NCBI GenBank assembly: GCA_002689325.1
Contig: NZFP01000007.1
Coordinates: forward strand, 1 to 43,918
Direction: 5' to 3'
Origin: Rickettsiales bacterium
GTDB lineage: Bacteria > Pseudomonadota > Alphaproteobacteria > Methylaequorales > Methylaequoraceae
DNA length: 43,918 nucleotides
Below the pieces are notes generated by a model, which was not told where the DNA came from, made no database searches, and worked only from the letters and a program-made list of their open reading frames with translations. Positions 1,756-43,841 of this stretch are shown in pieces. The position numbers and the translations under genes are program-made. Positions within the stretch are counted from its first letter, which is position 1. Each line of letters begins with the position of its first letter.

Positions 1756-3132
1756 TTATTCTAGAAGTTTAAACATTATTGAGCAAATAAACCCTCCAAG
1801 TGTTGATAAACCAACTAAATTGTTATCTGATAAGTGCGATGCCTCAGGAAGCATCGCTGAACAAATCATGGTTAACATTGCTCCAGCTGCTATACCTTCA
1901 ATAAACACCAAGCTACCATGGCTTATCGAATCGCCAATATACGCCCCTAATGCTGCACCAACTGCTGTTAGAATAACAAGACTTGACCAAAGAGATAATA
2001 CTCTTGTAAAGCTCATTCCTTGTTTTTGCATTTGAGCAGAACTAGATAAAGCCTCAGGAAAATTTGACAAGAATAATCCAGCGATAAATGTATAAGGCAA
2101 AACGCTCAAGAATGTAGGTTCTATCCCATTAGCAGCCTGAGCGGCAGCAGTTCCAAATATAGCTATACCTATCACAATACTCTCTGGAATTGCATCAAGA
2201 GCTATTCCCAACCAAATAGCCATAGCCGCATGACTGTGAGAATCATGGTCCTTTTGAAGATCGGTTCTCGTCGGAAGTTGTTGACCTGTTCCTAAACTAA
2301 TTGCCTTCATAGCCTGGTTGGTCCAGTTTTTTTTTTCTAAGTTATCTTGCTCAAGAAATGCAATATTTTCTTCGTGCCTTTCTGTGGCAAGTTTTTTTAC
2401 AGCTTCATCAAATTCAGGTATCATTTTCCTTAACTCATGAAAGTCATCAGCACTTAAAACTAATAGTTCTGTTTTTTCCGTGGCCCTTACATCTGACGGT
2501 CTTTTTGTATTATTCAATAAGGCCATTTCGCCAACAATTGAACCTTTTTCAAGTTCTATATCTCTATGATCGGGACTGTCTACAGATAACTTTCCGTAGT
2601 GAACTATGAACATAGCTTGTGCTGTGTCACCTCGGGAAAAAACTTTATCACCATCATTATATAATCTAGGCTTTAACCTTACTAAAATCGCCTCTATGTC
2701 TTCAGGGCTAACTGAAGCGAACATTGGAATATTACAGATATCCTCAAGAGTTTCGCGAAAAAACTTTTCCTTTTTTATTGCAGATTTGGAAATAATATAT
2801 GCTGTTTTTCTAAGATAACCTCCACCTTGACCAATAAGTTGATCCAAAAGAACAAAAAGAAGTCCTCCAACAATACATCCGCCTATTAAAACAAAAAAAC
2901 TATGCTTACTTTCACTAATTTCCTGAGGTGTTTCTGCAACTACTAGATGTTCTACAGTAGGTGCTACTAATTCGATTGCTAGAGCTGATAATAATGCTCC
3001 TGCTCCAAATGCTGCTAAGATTCCTATAATGTAGGAGGGAATTTTAAGGGTTAAGCCTACCAGTGAACCTAGAGTTAGTGAAAATGCTGCGATGCCCCCT
3101 GAAAAAAAGGCCCAATAAACCAAAGTAGTCAT
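1756..3132 (-). CDS. ZIP-family metal transporter with inserted cyclic-nucleotide-binding domain
   Basis: Predicted inner-membrane metal cation permease with a cytoplasmic sensor domain. Three hydrophobic helices (about residues 4-26, 32-56, 78-100) are followed by a soluble segment of some 190 residues, then further helices carrying ZIP-like motifs: HSHAAMAIWLGIALDAIPES (299-318) and SNFPEAL (356-362). The soluble part holds a cyclic-nucleotide-binding domain (about 131-245) with a phosphate-binding cassette GEMALL...KR (201-211) including the arginine expected to contact the nucleotide phosphate. A His/Asp-rich stretch (DHDSHSH, 295-301) precedes helix 4, as in many ZIP proteins. I chose the ATG at 3132 because GGAGGG lies 3 bases upstream; a TTG at 3174 in the same frame adds 14 residues but lacks such a site. 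Ligand and metal are not determinable from sequence. Confidence 0.8.
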   Translation of the reverse strand: MTTLVYWAFFSGGIAAFSLTLGSLVGLTLKIPSYIIGILAAFGAGALLSALAIELVAPTVEHLVVAETPQEISESKHSFFVLIGGCIVGGLLFVLLDQLIGQGGGYLRKTAYIISKSAIKKEKFFRETLEDICNIPMFASVSPEDIEAILVRLKPRLYNDGDKVFSRGDTAQAMFIVHYGKLSVDSPDHRDIELEKGSIVGEMALLNNTKRPSDVRATEKTELLVLSADDFHELRKMIPEFDEAVKKLATERHEENIAFLEQDNLEKKNWTNQAMKAISLGTGQQLPTRTDLQKDHDSHSHAAMAIWLGIALDAIPESIVIGIAIFGTAAAQAANGIEPTFLSVLPYTFIAGLFLSNFPEALSSSAQMQKQGMSFTRVLSLWSSLVILTAVGAALGAYIGDSISHGSLVFIEGIAAGAMLTMICSAMLPEASHLSDNNLVGLSTLGGFICSIMFKLLE

Positions 3133-3135
3133 ATA

Positions 3136-3141
3136 CCCTCC
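3136..3141 (-). promoter_or_regulatory. Ribosome binding site of the ZIP/CNB gene
   Basis: GGAGGG on the minus strand sits 3 bases before the ATG at 3132. It is one of the few strong Shine-Dalgarno sequences in this AT-rich window and decides the start codon of this gene. Confidence 0.65.
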
Positions 3142-3213
3142 GTAAAATAAAAAACTAATTTTACACCATATCAAGTTTTTTTTAAATAATTTTTTTAAAT
3201 AGACTTGTTAAAT

Positions 3214-11800: not shown

Positions 11801-12007
11801 GAGGGAACTCCTCACATTCTAGATTTAATTGAAAAAAAAAAGATTCAATTGATTATCAACACTACCTCAGGAAAGAAATCAATTGCTGACAGTTTTTCTA
11901 TAAGAAGAAGTGCTATAATAAACAAAATTCCTTATTTTACAACAATTTCTGCTGCTAAAGTTGCAGTTACAGGGTTAAATATAATAAAAAAAAAAAATTT
12001 TCAGTAA
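8810..12007 (+). CDS. carB: Carbamoyl-phosphate synthase large subunit
   Basis: Synthetase subunit making carbamoyl phosphate from bicarbonate, ammonia and two ATP. Two homologous halves are visible, each with a pre-ATP-grasp Rossmann motif ([20 protein letters not shown] at the start; [18 protein letters not shown] near residue 564) and an ATP-grasp domain ([27 protein letters not shown]). The C-terminal allosteric MGS-like domain has the [16 protein letters not shown] segment. Length 1065 is standard. It is translationally coupled to carA through an 8-base overlap. An A10 tract just before the stop encodes lysines in frame. Confidence 0.98.
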
Positions 12008-21075: not shown

Positions 21076-21591
21076 ATGAGAAATATTTTTGGCATTGTAG
21101 GTTGGAGTGGAAGTGGAAAAACACATTTGATTTGTAGAATTATAAAATATTTTGATAAAAAAAAGATTAATGTTTGTTCAATCAAACATTCTCATCATAA
21201 TTTTGAAATAGATAAAAAAGGTAAAGATAGTTATGAACATTTAAAATCAGGTTCAAACGAAGTTGTGATTTATAATGAATATAAATTCGCTATGATTACA
21301 AAAAAAAAAAAAAAAAAAATTACTTTAAAAGATATAGTAAAGAAATTTTCTCTGGATACTGACATAATATTAATTGAAGGCCTAAAAAAAGGACCAAATA
21401 AAAAAATAGAGGTATACAGAGACTCAATCAAAAAACCCCTACTCTGTCAAAGAGATAAAAACATAAAAGCACTAATTTTTGATAAAGTTACTCCAAAAAT
21501 TTCAAAAATAAGTCTTCCTAAATTTCATATAGATGAGACAAAAAAAATAGGTTCTTTTATTTTAAAAGAGATTAAAAATGAAAAACAATAA
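21076..21591 (+). CDS. mobB: Molybdopterin-guanine dinucleotide biosynthesis adapter MobB
   Basis: GTP-binding protein that assists attachment of GMP to molybdopterin. Walker A is GWSGSGKTHL (about 9-18), followed by CSIKHSHHNFEID and a DIILIEGLKKGP segment, all typical of MobB. Length 171 is normal. It starts immediately after pgsA and overlaps moeA by 14 bases. The gene contains a 20-A run (21300-21319) encoding six lysines in frame. No mobA is seen in the window. Confidence 0.92.
   Translation: MRNIFGIVGWSGSGKTHLICRIIKYFDKKKINVCSIKHSHHNFEIDKKGKDSYEHLKSGSNEVVIYNEYKFAMITKKKKKKITLKDIVKKFSLDTDIILIEGLKKGPNKKIEVYRDSIKKPLLCQRDKNIKALIFDKVTPKISKISLPKFHIDETKKIGSFILKEIKNEKQ
21300..21319 (+). repeat. 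Poly(A) tract of 20 inside mobB
   Basis: Twenty consecutive A bases lie in the mobB coding frame, giving a run of six lysine codons. The frame downstream continues into recognisable MobB sequence, so the assembled length preserves the gene. It is the longest homopolymer noticed in the window. Confidence 0.9.
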
Positions 21592-29703: not shown

Positions 29704-30718
29704 AATATATAATACTTTTAGAAATGGTGGGACTCTTTCTTTAAGTAGGTTTATTTTTCTCTGCCTCTATGAAAAAGATCATGGGTATTATCAAAAAAAT
29801 AGAATAGGAACTGATTTCATAACAGCTCCAGAAATTAGTCAGCTTTTTGGTGAATGTGTTTCAATATTCATAGCTTCAATTAATCAAAGGGTTGGAAAAA
29901 TTAGAGATTTTTGTGAGCTGGGTCCCGGTAATGGAACTCTAATAAATGATCTATCAAAAAACCTTAATAAACTGATTAAAGAGGAATTAAATTTTTTTTT
30001 ATTCGAAAAATCAAATAATCTTGTTAAAAATATAAAAAAAAATATTAAGAACCTGAACATTTCATATCTCAGGAAATTAATTTTTCCACCGAGGCCAATT
30101 TTTTTTATAGCAAACGAGTTTTTTGATGCCTTACCAATAAATCAGTTTGAAAAAACCTCAAATGGTTGGTTAGAAAGAAGAATTGATTTAGTTGAAGGAA
30201 AATTAAAACTCACTTTAAAAAAAAACCCTTTTTTCAAATTTTTAGAAAAGCAGAGTAAAAAAGGTGATGTAGATGAAATATCGCCATATACTGAGCTTTA
30301 CTTGAAAAGAATTTTTAGTCATTTAAATAAATTTGGGGGAGGTTTACTTATTTTTGATTACGGCCCTCTTAAAAAAAGAAAAATTGACCCCCTTCAGTCT
30401 ATTTTTAAAAAAAAAAAAAACTATTTTCTTAATAATCTCCATAAATCAGATATTACTTACCACGTTGATTTTGAAAAAATAAAGCAGCAGGCTATTAAAT
30501 CAGATTTATTTTTTTATGGACCAATCACTCAAAAAAAATTTCTTTTTTTTAACGGAATTAATGAAAGATTTATTAAATTATCACAAGGTTTACAATCTAA
30601 AAAACAATTTCAAATATTAGACTCTCAGTTTACTAGGCTTACCGATGCTAAAGGAATGGGAGATTTAATTAAATGTGCTTTTATTACTAAAGAAGAAGTT
30701 GAACTAAATTTTTTCTGA
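29687..30718 (+). CDS. MidA/NDUFAF7-type SAM-dependent methyltransferase
   Basis: Family of class I methyltransferases whose mitochondrial member methylates an arginine of complex I subunit NDUFS2; the bacterial role is inferred. The sequence shows GTDFITAPEISQLFGE (SAM region), ELGPGNGTLINDL (motif I), and IANEFFDALPINQFEK, all diagnostic. Length 343 is typical. It lies in the conserved alphaproteobacterial order lgt-midA-pgeF. An A14 tract (30407-30420) is in frame. It overlaps lgt by 17 bases and pgeF by one. Confidence 0.9.
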   Translation: MKKSSRIYNTFRNGGTLSLSRFIFLCLYEKDHGYYQKNRIGTDFITAPEISQLFGECVSIFIASINQRVGKIRDFCELGPGNGTLINDLSKNLNKLIKEELNFFLFEKSNNLVKNIKKNIKNLNISYLRKLIFPPRPIFFIANEFFDALPINQFEKTSNGWLERRIDLVEGKLKLTLKKNPFFKFLEKQSKKGDVDEISPYTELYLKRIFSHLNKFGGGLLIFDYGPLKKRKIDPLQSIFKKKKNYFLNNLHKSDITYHVDFEKIKQQAIKSDLFFYGPITQKKFLFFNGINERFIKLSQGLQSKKQFQILDSQFTRLTDAKGMGDLIKCAFITKEEVELNFF

Positions 30719-31485
30719 TGTCTAAAAAAAATAGAATTATTTTTTACAAAGATTTTCAATATTGTTTTTTCACAAGGAATGGTGGCGTTAGTAAAAAAAA
30801 CTTCAGTTCTTTAAACTGTTCATTTAATAAGGGTGACAACGATTTAAATGTTAAAAAAAACAGAGAGTATGTACGTGAAAAATTTTGTAGCAAAAAAAAA
30901 ATAATTTTAATTAATCAAGTTCACTCCAACAAAATTTTCTTTATTGATAAAATCACCAATCAAATTTTAAGTGGAGATGGAATTATCTCTGACAGAAAAG
31001 ATTTAGTTCTTGGTGTTTTGACTGCAGACTGTGCTCCCATAGTAATTCTGGGAAAAAAATACTTTGGAATCATACATGCAGGTTGGAAAGGAGTTTTTTC
31101 AGGAATAATAGAAAATGCTCTGAACTTTTTTTTTGAAAAGGGTGAATACAAAGAAGATATTTTTGTGGATGTAGGTCCTCATTTAAAAAAAAATTCTTTT
31201 GAAGTTAAGAATGATTTTCTTGTTAACTTAAAAAAACAAGAAATAAATTCAGAAAAATATATTTCGTCAATAAAAAGAAAACTTTATTTTGATTTCAGTT
31301 TACTTATTGCAGATAAAATAATTAATTGTGGCATTGATAATTTTAATATTTCAAAAATAGACACATTTCAAAACTACAATAATTTTTATAGTTTTAGATA
31401 CTATTTAAAAAAAGGAATTAAAAATTGTGGTAGGCAAATCAGTTTAGTTAGTATAAAAGATAATTATGAAATTGGTATCAGGTAA
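30718..31485 (+). CDS. pgeF: Peptidoglycan editing factor PgeF (YfiH/laccase-domain family)
   Basis: YfiH/LACC1 superfamily; bacterial PgeF is reported to hydrolyse a wrongly incorporated amino acid from peptidoglycan precursors, whereas older annotation as polyphenol oxidase is doubtful. Conserved zinc-site motifs are NQVHSN (His), TADCAPIV (Cys) and IHAGWKG (His). The usual GPCI segment reads [13 protein letters not shown] here, a variation. Length 255 is typical. The ATG overlaps the midA stop by one base, and prs starts inside its 3' end (20-base overlap). Confidence 0.9.
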
Positions 31486-32398
31486 TAGCAATAAACCCCT
31501 TGCTGAGAGCATAGCCAAATATCTTGGTGTTAAATTAGTTGACGCAACAATAAAAAAATTTCCTGATAAAGAAATTTTTGTTGAAATTCAAGAAAATGTG
31601 AGGGGAGAAGATGTTTTTGTCATACAATCAACTTCATTTCCTGCTAACGACCATGTAATGGAATTACTAATTACAATCGATGCTCTTAAAAGAGGCTCAG
31701 CCAAGAGAATAGCTGCAATTATGCCTTACTATGGTTATGCAAGGCAGGATCGAAAGTCCGGACCTAGATCACCAATATCAGCTAAATTACTTGCTAACCT
31801 AATAAGTGTAGCTGGCGCAGATAGAGCCCTTATGGTTGATCTTCACGCTGGACAAATCCAAGGTTTTTTTGATATTCCAACAGACAATCTATTCGCTGCA
31901 CCTGTTTTTATAGAAGATATTAAAAAGAAATTTTCTGAAAAAGATTTTATTATCATATCTCCTGATGTAGGTGGAGTTGTAAGAGCCCGCGCAATTGCAA
32001 AAAGATTAGACTGTGATCTTGCTATAATTGACAAAAGAAGAGAGAAAGCAAGTGTTTCTGAGGTAATGAACATTATTGGTGAAATTAAAAATAAACATTG
32101 TATTTTAATTGATGATATTTGTGATACTGCAGGGACACTTTCAAATGCAGCGAAAGCGTTAAAAGAAGAAAAAGCAGAATCAGTATACGCATACATTACT
32201 CATGGAGTTTTATCAGAACCAGCCATAGAAAGAATAAATAATTCACCTATTGATAAAATGATAATAACTGATAGTATTCTCGCTCGAGAAGATGTACGTT
32301 CTTCTAAAAAAATTGAGCAATTGTCTATAGCTCCTCTCATTGGAGAGGCAATAGGAAGAATTACAGAAAATAGGTCGGTTTCGAGTCTATTTGCTTAA
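31466..32398 (+). CDS. prs: Ribose-phosphate pyrophosphokinase
   Basis: Makes PRPP from ribose 5-phosphate and ATP for nucleotide, histidine and tryptophan synthesis. Motifs: the N-terminal [39 protein letters not shown] (flexible loop), the ATP-binding [12 protein letters not shown], and the PRPP loop [12 protein letters not shown]. Length 310 is standard. It is nested into the end of pgeF by 20 bases and followed 12 bases later by the rplY start. Confidence 0.97.
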
Positions 32399-32410: not shown

Positions 32411-33131
32411 ATGAATGAGAATTCACAATTAATAGTTAGTAAAAGAGAAAATAGTGGAACTGGCGATTCTCGGAGCTTAAGACAAAAAAAAAAAAATACC
32501 AGGAATAATTTATGGTGATAAAAAAGATCCTATTCCTATTTTGTTAGATGAAAAGATTCTTAAATTGAAAATTAAAGATCCTACTTTTTTTTCCAAGCAA
32601 TGTGAAATTAAATTTAATGATGAAGTTATAAAAGTTTTACCTAAAGACTTGCAGCTTCATCCTGTAAAAGAAAGTATTTTGCACATTGATTTTCTGAGAG
32701 TTAGTGGGAACACCACTGTAACCTTACTTGTTCCAGTTAAATTCATAAACGAAAATAATTGCCCGGGTATAAAACAAGGTGGAGTTTTAAATATTGTTAG
32801 ACGTGAAATAGAACTCATAACTTTAGTTTCAAAAATACCTGAATCTCTTGAAGCAAACCTTGATGGATTAGAAATTGGCGACAGCATACACATTAGCTCA
32901 ATAAATTTAGAAGAGGGGGTAAAACCTACAATTTCTGATCGAGACTTTACTATTGCTACAATTGCACCACCAACAGTCTTGAAAGTTGAAGAAGAGAAGC
33001 CAGTTGAAGAAACTGATGAAGGTGTTCAAGATGCTGAAGCAAAAGAAGGGGATTCAAGCGTAGATAAGCAGGAAGCAGCAAAAGAAAAATCCTCTGATGG
33101 GAAAAAATCAGAAGATAGCGAAAAAAAATAA
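32411..33131 (+). CDS. rplY: 50S ribosomal protein L25/TL5/CTC, interrupted by a frameshift at a poly(A) tract
   Basis: Ribosomal protein binding 5S rRNA, of the longer CTC type. Translation from the ATG at 32411 gives an N-terminus ending SLRQKKK; the expected continuation IPGIIYGDKK, a classic L25 motif, lies in the +1 frame. The break coincides with 13 consecutive A (32484-32496). Removing one A gives a continuous 239-residue protein: L25 domain (about 1-95), beta-barrel CTC domain (about 100-190), and an acidic/lysine-rich tail. Read as assembled, translation ends at a TGA about 16 bases beyond the tract. A TTG at 32541 would make a truncated protein lacking the N-terminal RNA-binding part. 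Sequencing error, a real mutation, or slippage are the options. Confidence 0.88.
32484..32496 (+). repeat. Poly(A) tract of 13 at the rplY frame break
   Basis: Thirteen A bases directly follow codons for SLRQ. The upstream and downstream L25 frames differ by one base exactly here; twelve (or fifteen) A would join them. Confidence 0.9.
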
Positions 33132-33145
33132 TGTTTTCCAATTAA

Positions 33146-33709
33146 ATGATTTTAATAACTGGACTTGGTAACCCTGGTAAAGAATTCTTAAAAACAAGAC
33201 ATAATATTGGTTTTGATATAGTTGATTCGATACATTCTGAATTTAATTTTCCAAAATATTCTGAAAAATTCAACTCTTTATATTCAAAAAAAACTATATA
33301 TGACAAAATCATAGTGATTCAAAAACCAATGTCATATATGAATTTAAGTGGAGGCCCAATAAAAAAAATTTTCAATTTTTTTAAAATTAATGATACTCAA
33401 GATATTTTTATTTTTCATGATGACTTAGACCTTGAGTTCTCTTCACTGAGAATAAAAAATTCTGGAGGGCATGGAGGTCACAATGGTATTAAAAGTATTA
33501 TAGGGCTGATTGGACCTAACTTTAATAGAATAAAATTTGGAATTAAAAACTCTTTATACAAAGAAAAAAATATTGATGCTGATAAATTTGTTTTAGATAA
33601 ATTTAACTTGGAAGAATTAAAAATGATTGAGAATATTAAAAAAAAAATAATTATTAATTTCAAATTACTAATAAAAAAAGACTTTTCATCTTTTAAAAAT
33701 AATTTTTAA
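33146..33709 (+). CDS. pth: Peptidyl-tRNA hydrolase
   Basis: Recycles tRNA from prematurely released peptidyl-tRNA. Motifs: GLGNPGKEFLKTRHNIGFDIVD at the N-terminus (including the catalytic His), KPMSYMNLSGGPI, the HDDLDLEF active-site aspartate, and GGHGGHNGIKSI. Length 187 is typical. It follows rplY by 14 bases and precedes ychF by 1 base, in the conserved order rplY-pth-ychF. Confidence 0.97.
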   Translation: MILITGLGNPGKEFLKTRHNIGFDIVDSIHSEFNFPKYSEKFNSLYSKKTIYDKIIVIQKPMSYMNLSGGPIKKIFNFFKINDTQDIFIFHDDLDLEFSSLRIKNSGGHGGHNGIKSIIGLIGPNFNRIKFGIKNSLYKEKNIDADKFVLDKFNLEELKMIENIKKKIIINFKLLIKKDFSSFKNNF

Positions 33710-42331: not shown

Positions 42332-43129
42332 ATGAGCACCTCAAGGATAATTTTTTTTTCTCTAGCTTTAACTCTTATTTCTTTTAACGTTAATGCTACA
42401 AAGCTACTTTCCTATCAAAGTGAATATGAGATTAGTCTTGCTAATTCTGAAAAAATACGTTTACCCGGTAAAACCTATGTAGACGAGGCTTCTGGGCAAC
42501 TTTTTATTGATTGGATTAATAATTGTAAAAACTCTTGGGTATCCAATCAAAGAATGATGACTCGATTCATAAATTCACATGGAGTTGGAACAGTTAGCGA
42601 AATTAACTATTCTATAAATGAAAAAGCTGACGGCTCAGACATGGATTTTGTTTTAGAAGTTAAAGAGGATGCTGAATTAGTGGAAAGAGTTTATGGAGAA
42701 GCAAAAATAAATAATAATTTGATTGTTAAGTTTCCACAAACGGATAAAGAAAATTTAAACTTTTCCGATGATGTAGTTTTCCCTCACCAATTTCTTGAAG
42801 AAATAATATCAAATCTTTACTCTAAAAAACGAATGATTACCAAAAAAGTATATGAAGGAACGATTCCAGACAAGTTTTTTAATATTTCTGTGTTTCTAAC
42901 AGATCAAATTATTAGAGAATCTGACATAAAACTTCCTAAAAAAATTAACAACAAATTTAAAAAAATTAGAATGTCCTATTATCAAGACAACCAGCAAACA
43001 CCTATATTTGAGCAAACAGTTAATCTTAATGATCAAGGAATAGCAAACTTTTTCAGATATGATTATGCTGACTATTCTTTAATTTTAAAGTTAAAGAAAA
43101 TTAACTTAGTCAACCTAGACTGTGATTAA
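42332..43129 (+). CDS. EipB/DUF1849-family periplasmic envelope protein
   Basis: Alphaproteobacterial cell-envelope protein; Brucella EipB is a periplasmic beta-spiral protein needed for envelope integrity. A signal peptide covers residues 1-22. The mature part starts with LLSYQSEYEISLA and has the family pattern GQLFIDWINNCKNSW and DGSDMDF. Two cysteines remain, one at the WINNC position and one at the extreme C-terminus (LDCD), matching the conserved disulfide known in EipB. Length 265 fits. It stands alone on its strand, and its 3' end overlaps the converging last gene by 15 bases. Confidence 0.8.
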   Translation: MSTSRIIFFSLALTLISFNVNATKLLSYQSEYEISLANSEKIRLPGKTYVDEASGQLFIDWINNCKNSWVSNQRMMTRFINSHGVGTVSEINYSINEKADGSDMDFVLEVKEDAELVERVYGEAKINNNLIVKFPQTDKENLNFSDDVVFPHQFLEEIISNLYSKKRMITKKVYEGTIPDKFFNISVFLTDQIIRESDIKLPKKINNKFKKIRMSYYQDNQQTPIFEQTVNLNDQGIANFFRYDYADYSLILKLKKINLVNLDCD

Positions 43130-43841
43130 TTTCACTCTTTTTTTATGAATTGTACCGTATTCTTTAATTTTTTTTCTTAGTTTTAACTCCATTTTTTTGT
43201 CTTTACTTAAAGAAATAAAAATAGTGTTAGGAGCTGTTCTATTGACTATTACAGGACAATTAATTTTTATATTTTTCAACTTTAAATGATTCTTTATTTC
43301 ACTCAAGTAATTGATATTTGTTTTATTGAAAGATTGAAACTGAGTAAAAATTATAGTTTTTTTTTTTGATAAATAAGTCTCTATCTCTTTTACTAACAAG
43401 TATTTTAAAGACATTTTCTTACTTTTTTTTTTTTTTTAATAAACCATTATCAGGGTCCAAAAAAATAATATCCTTTTTTTTAAAAAAATTTATTGAATCA
43501 GTGAACCATTTTTCTCTGTTCAGCAAAGGTATTTTTTTATTATAAAAGCTTACATATTGGCTCAAATGTGTTTTTTTTGTGAAAGTTATAATATTTCTAA
43601 ATTTTTTTGTTTTTAACTTAACAAATTCGTCATAAATTTTTCTATCAATAGTTTTGAATTCATTTCCCTTTAGAAAATATCTTTTTTCTCCATCTTTTTT
43701 ATTTAATTCTTTCTGTCCAATTTTTTTTGGATCCACCAAATACCAATTAAGACCAATCTTCTGATTAAATGCACAACTCAAAAACTTTACAAAAATAAAT
43801 TTTTGAAAATCATGAATGTCACCTAAGTATCTTTGTTGCAT
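43115..43841 (-). CDS. Conserved hypothetical protein with LDPDNGL motif, interrupted at a poly(A) tract
   Basis: I recognise the pattern of a conserved hypothetical family: an N-terminus like QQRYLGDIHDFQKF, NWYLVDP, DGEKRYFL, FLDPDNGL, then a C-terminal half with TIIFTQFQSFNK and late beta strands. Its function is not established. As assembled, the first 140 residues end DNGLLKKKKK followed by TAA; the rest, beginning SLKYLLVKEIE, is in another frame. The break falls in a run of 15 A on the minus strand (43423-43437). Removing one A joins both halves into 241 residues. An ATG at 43414 could start the second half separately, but the two halves match one family protein. Confidence 0.7.
43423..43437 (-). 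repeat. Poly(A) tract of 15 at the frame break of the last gene
   Basis: Fifteen consecutive T on the plus strand, A on the coding strand, follow the codons for DNGLL. Fourteen A would keep the frame open (KKKKSKKMSLKY); fifteen leads to a stop two codon positions after the tract. Confidence 0.9.

Follow-up and report, generated by a model that had tools for sequence, protein, structure and literature searches.

The window, the whole stretch of 43,918 nucleotides that was analysed, is contig C8 of a draft genome of 1.307 Mb in 46 contigs (88.8% complete). It contains the gene order prs-rplY-pth-ychF, in which rplY, encoding ribosomal protein L25 of the L25/CTC type, adjoins prs (31466-32398) on one side and pth (33146-33709), followed by ychF, on the other (the names of prs, pth, and ychF come from sequence reading). 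Direct reading of the draft sequence finds rplY broken by a single surplus A. The Shine-Dalgarno motif AGGAG lies just 5′ of the ATG at 32411, and the first 24 codons (32411-32482, plus strand) align in the zero frame with the L25 N-terminus of the two nearest genomes, AG-899-D02 and AG-892-K07. A run of exactly 13 A (32484-32496, plus strand) then shifts the frame by +1. Translation from the ATG produces MNENSQLIVSKRENSGTGDSRSLRQKKKNTRNNLW and then meets a stop codon; within it, the zero frame reads MNENSQLIVSKRENSGTGDSRSLRQKKK, departing from the L25 sequence after the run, while the L25 continuation, IPGIIYGDKKDPI..., sits one frame over and extends to a stop codon at 33129-33131. This remainder (32496-33131, plus strand, +1 frame) comprises the rest of the L25 barrel, the TL5/CTC C-terminal domain, and an acidic, lysine-rich tail. 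Pfam detects Ribosomal_L25p (PF01386; 48.5 bits, profile positions 23-82) and Ribosomal_TL5_C (PF14693; 87.4 bits) in it, the pairing of L25 with a TL5 C-terminal domain that marks the L25/CTC type. The assembly yields a single L25 match, with no second copy. An earlier note on this DNA had described rplY as split at 13 A behind an ATG at 32411 with a Shine-Dalgarno sequence, and the motif, the tract length, and the differing frames are all confirmed.

Downstream of the run, rplY shows normal purifying selection. Its dN/dS there is 0.13-0.14 against AG-899-D02 and AG-892-K07, which falls inside the 0.03-0.20 range of the neighbouring genes (prs, 0.03; ychF, 0.07-0.08; the gene at 30718, 0.14-0.15; pth, 0.17-0.20; lgt, 0.10-0.14). 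These ratios rule out pseudogene decay of rplY. Both the Pfam domains and the dN/dS of 0.13 agree with the earlier observation that the downstream L25/CTC sequence is intact and the gene not decayed, though such preservation is expected from every main explanation except an old loss.

The two nearest genomes belong to the same genus as the source organism and share 83% identity with it over the downstream L25 sequence. HIMB59-MED-G10 is in the same family, and the source is therefore a HIMB59-like marine alphaproteobacterium. The related genomes, obtained from single cells or metagenomes, are marine and HIMB59-like, so the hint at an insect endosymbiont in the earlier note was mistaken. Of the relatives, 51 have an L25 match, and in every case the match is free of stops. 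Visual inspection of fifteen genomes of the family always finds the conserved Arg separated from the (I/V)P(G/A) motif by four residues, in frame, with spacers such as KEKK, LEKK, SDKK, TDKQ, SKNH, and others. Counted as 12 A, the run in the window restores this spacing as QKKK, whereas at 13 A the frame is broken. Since 12 A gives the four residues found in every relative that was read, 13 A exceeds the count by one, and 15 A would add a residue absent from the family. The two congeners carry A8 and A9 at this site, and upstream a GAA codon breaks the series of lysines; thus, the long A run itself is new in this lineage. Neither the break nor a long A run occurs in rplY of the congeners or of the other family members read, and the locus was not found in viral contigs. 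The earlier note had named, as evidence against its own proposal, close relatives in which ordinary lysine codons stand in place of a long A run, and such relatives exist.

Long A runs are ordinary in this clade. Runs of A13 or T13 number 58 in 1.29 Mb of this genome, four of them in the window, so the A13 tract in rplY is by itself unremarkable. Coding A runs of at least 10 occur 487 times, against 402 expected when synonymous codons are permuted within genes, while coding T runs of at least 10 are slightly depleted by the same measure (58 observed, 80 expected); the pattern is similar in both congeners. In Escherichia coli, AAA-AAA-AAA occurs some 50 times less often than expected (PMC5009743). 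Unlike E. coli, therefore, the clade shows no avoidance of A runs in coding sequence. An A20 run in mobB (window positions 21300-21319), the longest A/T run in the part of the genome covered, is in frame and encodes six lysines. What is unusual in rplY is the broken frame, which is confined to this assembly.

The frequency of such breaks was assessed by using the long open reading frames of each of the three genomes as tblastn queries against the others, covering 98.6% of this assembly, 0.80 Mb of AG-892-K07, and 0.38 Mb of AG-899-D02. A/T runs of at least 8 in aligned genes were scored as intact when the same homologous frame lay on both sides and as broken when two frames were involved, and start-codon overlaps and truncated-query artefacts were removed. 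On this basis, 24 curated mid-gene breaks at A/T runs of at least 9 were found in this assembly. A break common to all three genomes would escape the scan, a circumstance directly excluded for rplY. The proportion broken climbs with run length, from 0/826 at 8 bases, 2/428 at 9, 5/170 at 10, and 1/66 at 11 to 5/50 at 12, 5/33 at 13, and 6/21 (29%) at 14 or more. For runs of at least 10, 22 of 340 are broken here, compared with 1 of 115 in AG-899-D02 and none of 296 in AG-892-K07, or 1 of 411 in the two congeners together (Fisher p = 2e-7). The contrast is independent of curation, as the uncurated breaks at such runs number 24 here and 1 and 1 in the congeners. It is also seen at equal long-run density in this assembly and AG-892-K07. 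An apparent break at an A14 run in AG-892-K07 proved to be an artefact of a truncated query from this assembly, and the other frame switches listed lie nearly all at gene starts or ends. The direction is +1 in 17 of the 24 breaks.

Three genes in the window are split alike. Besides rplY, an A12 run (11986-11997, plus strand) puts the final ~12 codons of carB in a different frame from that of both congeners, and an A15 run on the minus strand (43423-43437, T15 on the plus strand) splits a hypothetical gene (43115-43841, minus strand) that is continuous in AG-892-K07 (contig C3, about 119743-120465). Outside the window, about 21 further genes are split at A/T runs of 9-16 on contigs C2, C7, C9, C13, C20, C24, C25, C31, C33, C34, C35, C40, C44, and C45. 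With names assigned from Pfam, the genes broken in this assembly include those for signal peptidase I (lepB), riboflavin kinase/FAD synthetase (ribF), ATP synthase delta (atpH), chorismate synthase (aroC), a Mur ligase, MTHFR (metF), a RecG-like helicase, a tRNA pseudouridine synthase, a ClpA-like ATPase, phosphoglucose isomerase, and an AFG1-like ATPase, in addition to the carB tail. Several of these, namely lepB, ribF, atpH, aroC, and the Mur ligase, are indispensable, and a single viable cell could hardly lack them all. With so many indispensable genes broken, either the sequence is wrong at the runs or every one of the genes is rescued.

The pattern of breaks favours the former. Most probably, the cell has a normal, working L25/CTC rplY, and the draft consensus gives its poly-A run one A too many. 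The surplus base would have arisen through a read or assembly error at a 12-A homopolymer, or from a tract-length variant, unfixed in the population, that found its way into the consensus. Even at 12 A the run is recent, no special mechanism of expression would be needed, and reads of the run would be expected to show 12 A. The earlier note had left the choice between an assembly or homopolymer problem and slippage by RNA polymerase. The first of these is better supported by breaks that depend on length, occur at A/T runs alone, are specific to one assembly, and strike many indispensable genes; the second loses ground, as the rplY break is unshared, of the +1 type, and set among congeners that stay in frame. 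Errors or unfixed variants are favoured both by the nearly unbroken congeners and by the share of runs of 14 or more that are broken, which is 29%. Draft-consensus homopolymer errors likewise appear as single-base indels at A/T runs that become more frequent with length, in genes that are otherwise intact, and they hit indispensable genes while sister assemblies are free of them. The present case differs in that most breaks are one base too many. Counting against a consensus error, 15 of the 21 coding A14-A20 runs in the same assembly, including that of mobB, are in frame, and the excess of breaks could reflect a real hypermutable lineage, as mutS is missing from the assembly, although it falls in a contig gap. 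Compared with other rplY genes of the L25/CTC (TL5-type) class, this one has the same Pfam domains and the same prs-rplY-pth-ychF order, and it differs by the A13 frame break, which is found in this assembly only.

It is also conceivable, although unlikely, that this cell or strain truly carries a 13th A, recently gained by replication slippage at A12, such that the rplY allele is frameshifted and largely inactive or hypomorphic. L25 is dispensable in E. coli, so a cell with a frameshifted rplY would survive. A/T runs are slippage-prone by nature, the dependence on run length fits replication slippage equally well, and the downstream part of rplY is undecayed, as a very recent allele would be. 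However, real frameshifts in lepB, ribF, atpH, aroC, and the Mur ligase together would be hard for a viable cell to bear. A further point on the side of such an allele is that this assembly has no MutS match, though one is present in all relatives that are at least 90% complete. This absence is accounted for by a contig gap. Contig C42 starts inside a glnD-like gene, the next one after mutS in the congeners, and the one preceding mutS there is absent as well; with both flanks cut or missing, mutS falls in the gap and is uninformative on repair. MutS loss was thus set aside as the cause of tract instability.

If the 13th A is real, RNA polymerase slippage might instead produce a share of mRNAs carrying 12 or 15 A, as has been described in Buchnera and Blochmannia, a reading of rplY that is distinctly improbable. 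Correction of 12-50% of transcripts is reported for these endosymbionts (review PMC5009743), and Blochmannia vafer, with 153 poly-A runs of at least 9 in coding sequence, has eight such frameshifted genes (PMC3017870), which gives slippage a standing in principle. Like the slippage genes of Buchnera and Blochmannia, rplY belongs to an AT-rich genome and has a single indel in a long poly-A tract, with the downstream sequence intact and selected. The same defect recurs in several indispensable genes, and the clade does not avoid long coding A runs. However, frameshifts expressed in this way are expected to be conserved across populations or species, and that of rplY is absent from the congeners and from every other family member compared. 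The congeners, which should share a rescue mechanism, keep their frames almost everywhere at equal tract density, and if rescue made run length a matter of indifference, about two thirds of the long runs should be out of frame, far above the share seen at 14 or more. The direction is also unfavourable. Being +1, the rplY break needs a one-base deletion or a two-base insertion for its correction, whereas homopolymer slippage in the transcriptomes of E. coli and Buchnera is mainly single-base insertion, with restored frames not found (PMC5574713). Such insertion is no cure for +1 breaks, the majority here. Moreover, deletion rescue by E. coli RNA polymerase was undetectable on the poly-A runs tested, all of them shorter than that of rplY (PMC6260861). 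The case thus departs from Buchnera and Blochmannia in its unconserved break, marine clade, and +1 direction. Less credible again is the broader proposal that some two dozen genes, including several indispensable ones, are truly frameshifted in A runs and expressed through transcription slippage; if true, it would place slippage expression, so far described mainly for insect endosymbionts, in an AT-rich marine alphaproteobacterium.

Rescue at the level of translation, whether through a +1 shift of the ribosome on the A run or through an internal start for the downstream part, has next to no likelihood. The downstream part is open and conserved, as this would require. However, the frameshifting typical of A runs is −1, which by direct reading leads into the wrong frame. 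The ATG just past the tract (TTTATGG, near 32513) lies in a frame other than that of L25, and the earliest start in the L25 frame, a TTG at 32541, would cost much of the 5S-binding domain. Neither arrangement is conserved in relatives.

A run one A too long in the consensus, as favoured here for rplY, carries a caution for AT-rich drafts, where a frameshift at a long A run calls for comparison with sister genomes before the gene concerned is declared split, lost, or recoded. The clade carries hundreds of coding A runs of at least 10 with their frames kept, and how its RNA polymerase and replication handle them is a testable question.

Elsewhere in the window, the minus strand at 1756-3174 encodes a membrane protein with a central cyclic-nucleotide-binding domain (PF00027, residues 170-249). 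The hydrophobic stretches flanking this domain have no Pfam match but look ZIP-transporter-like.
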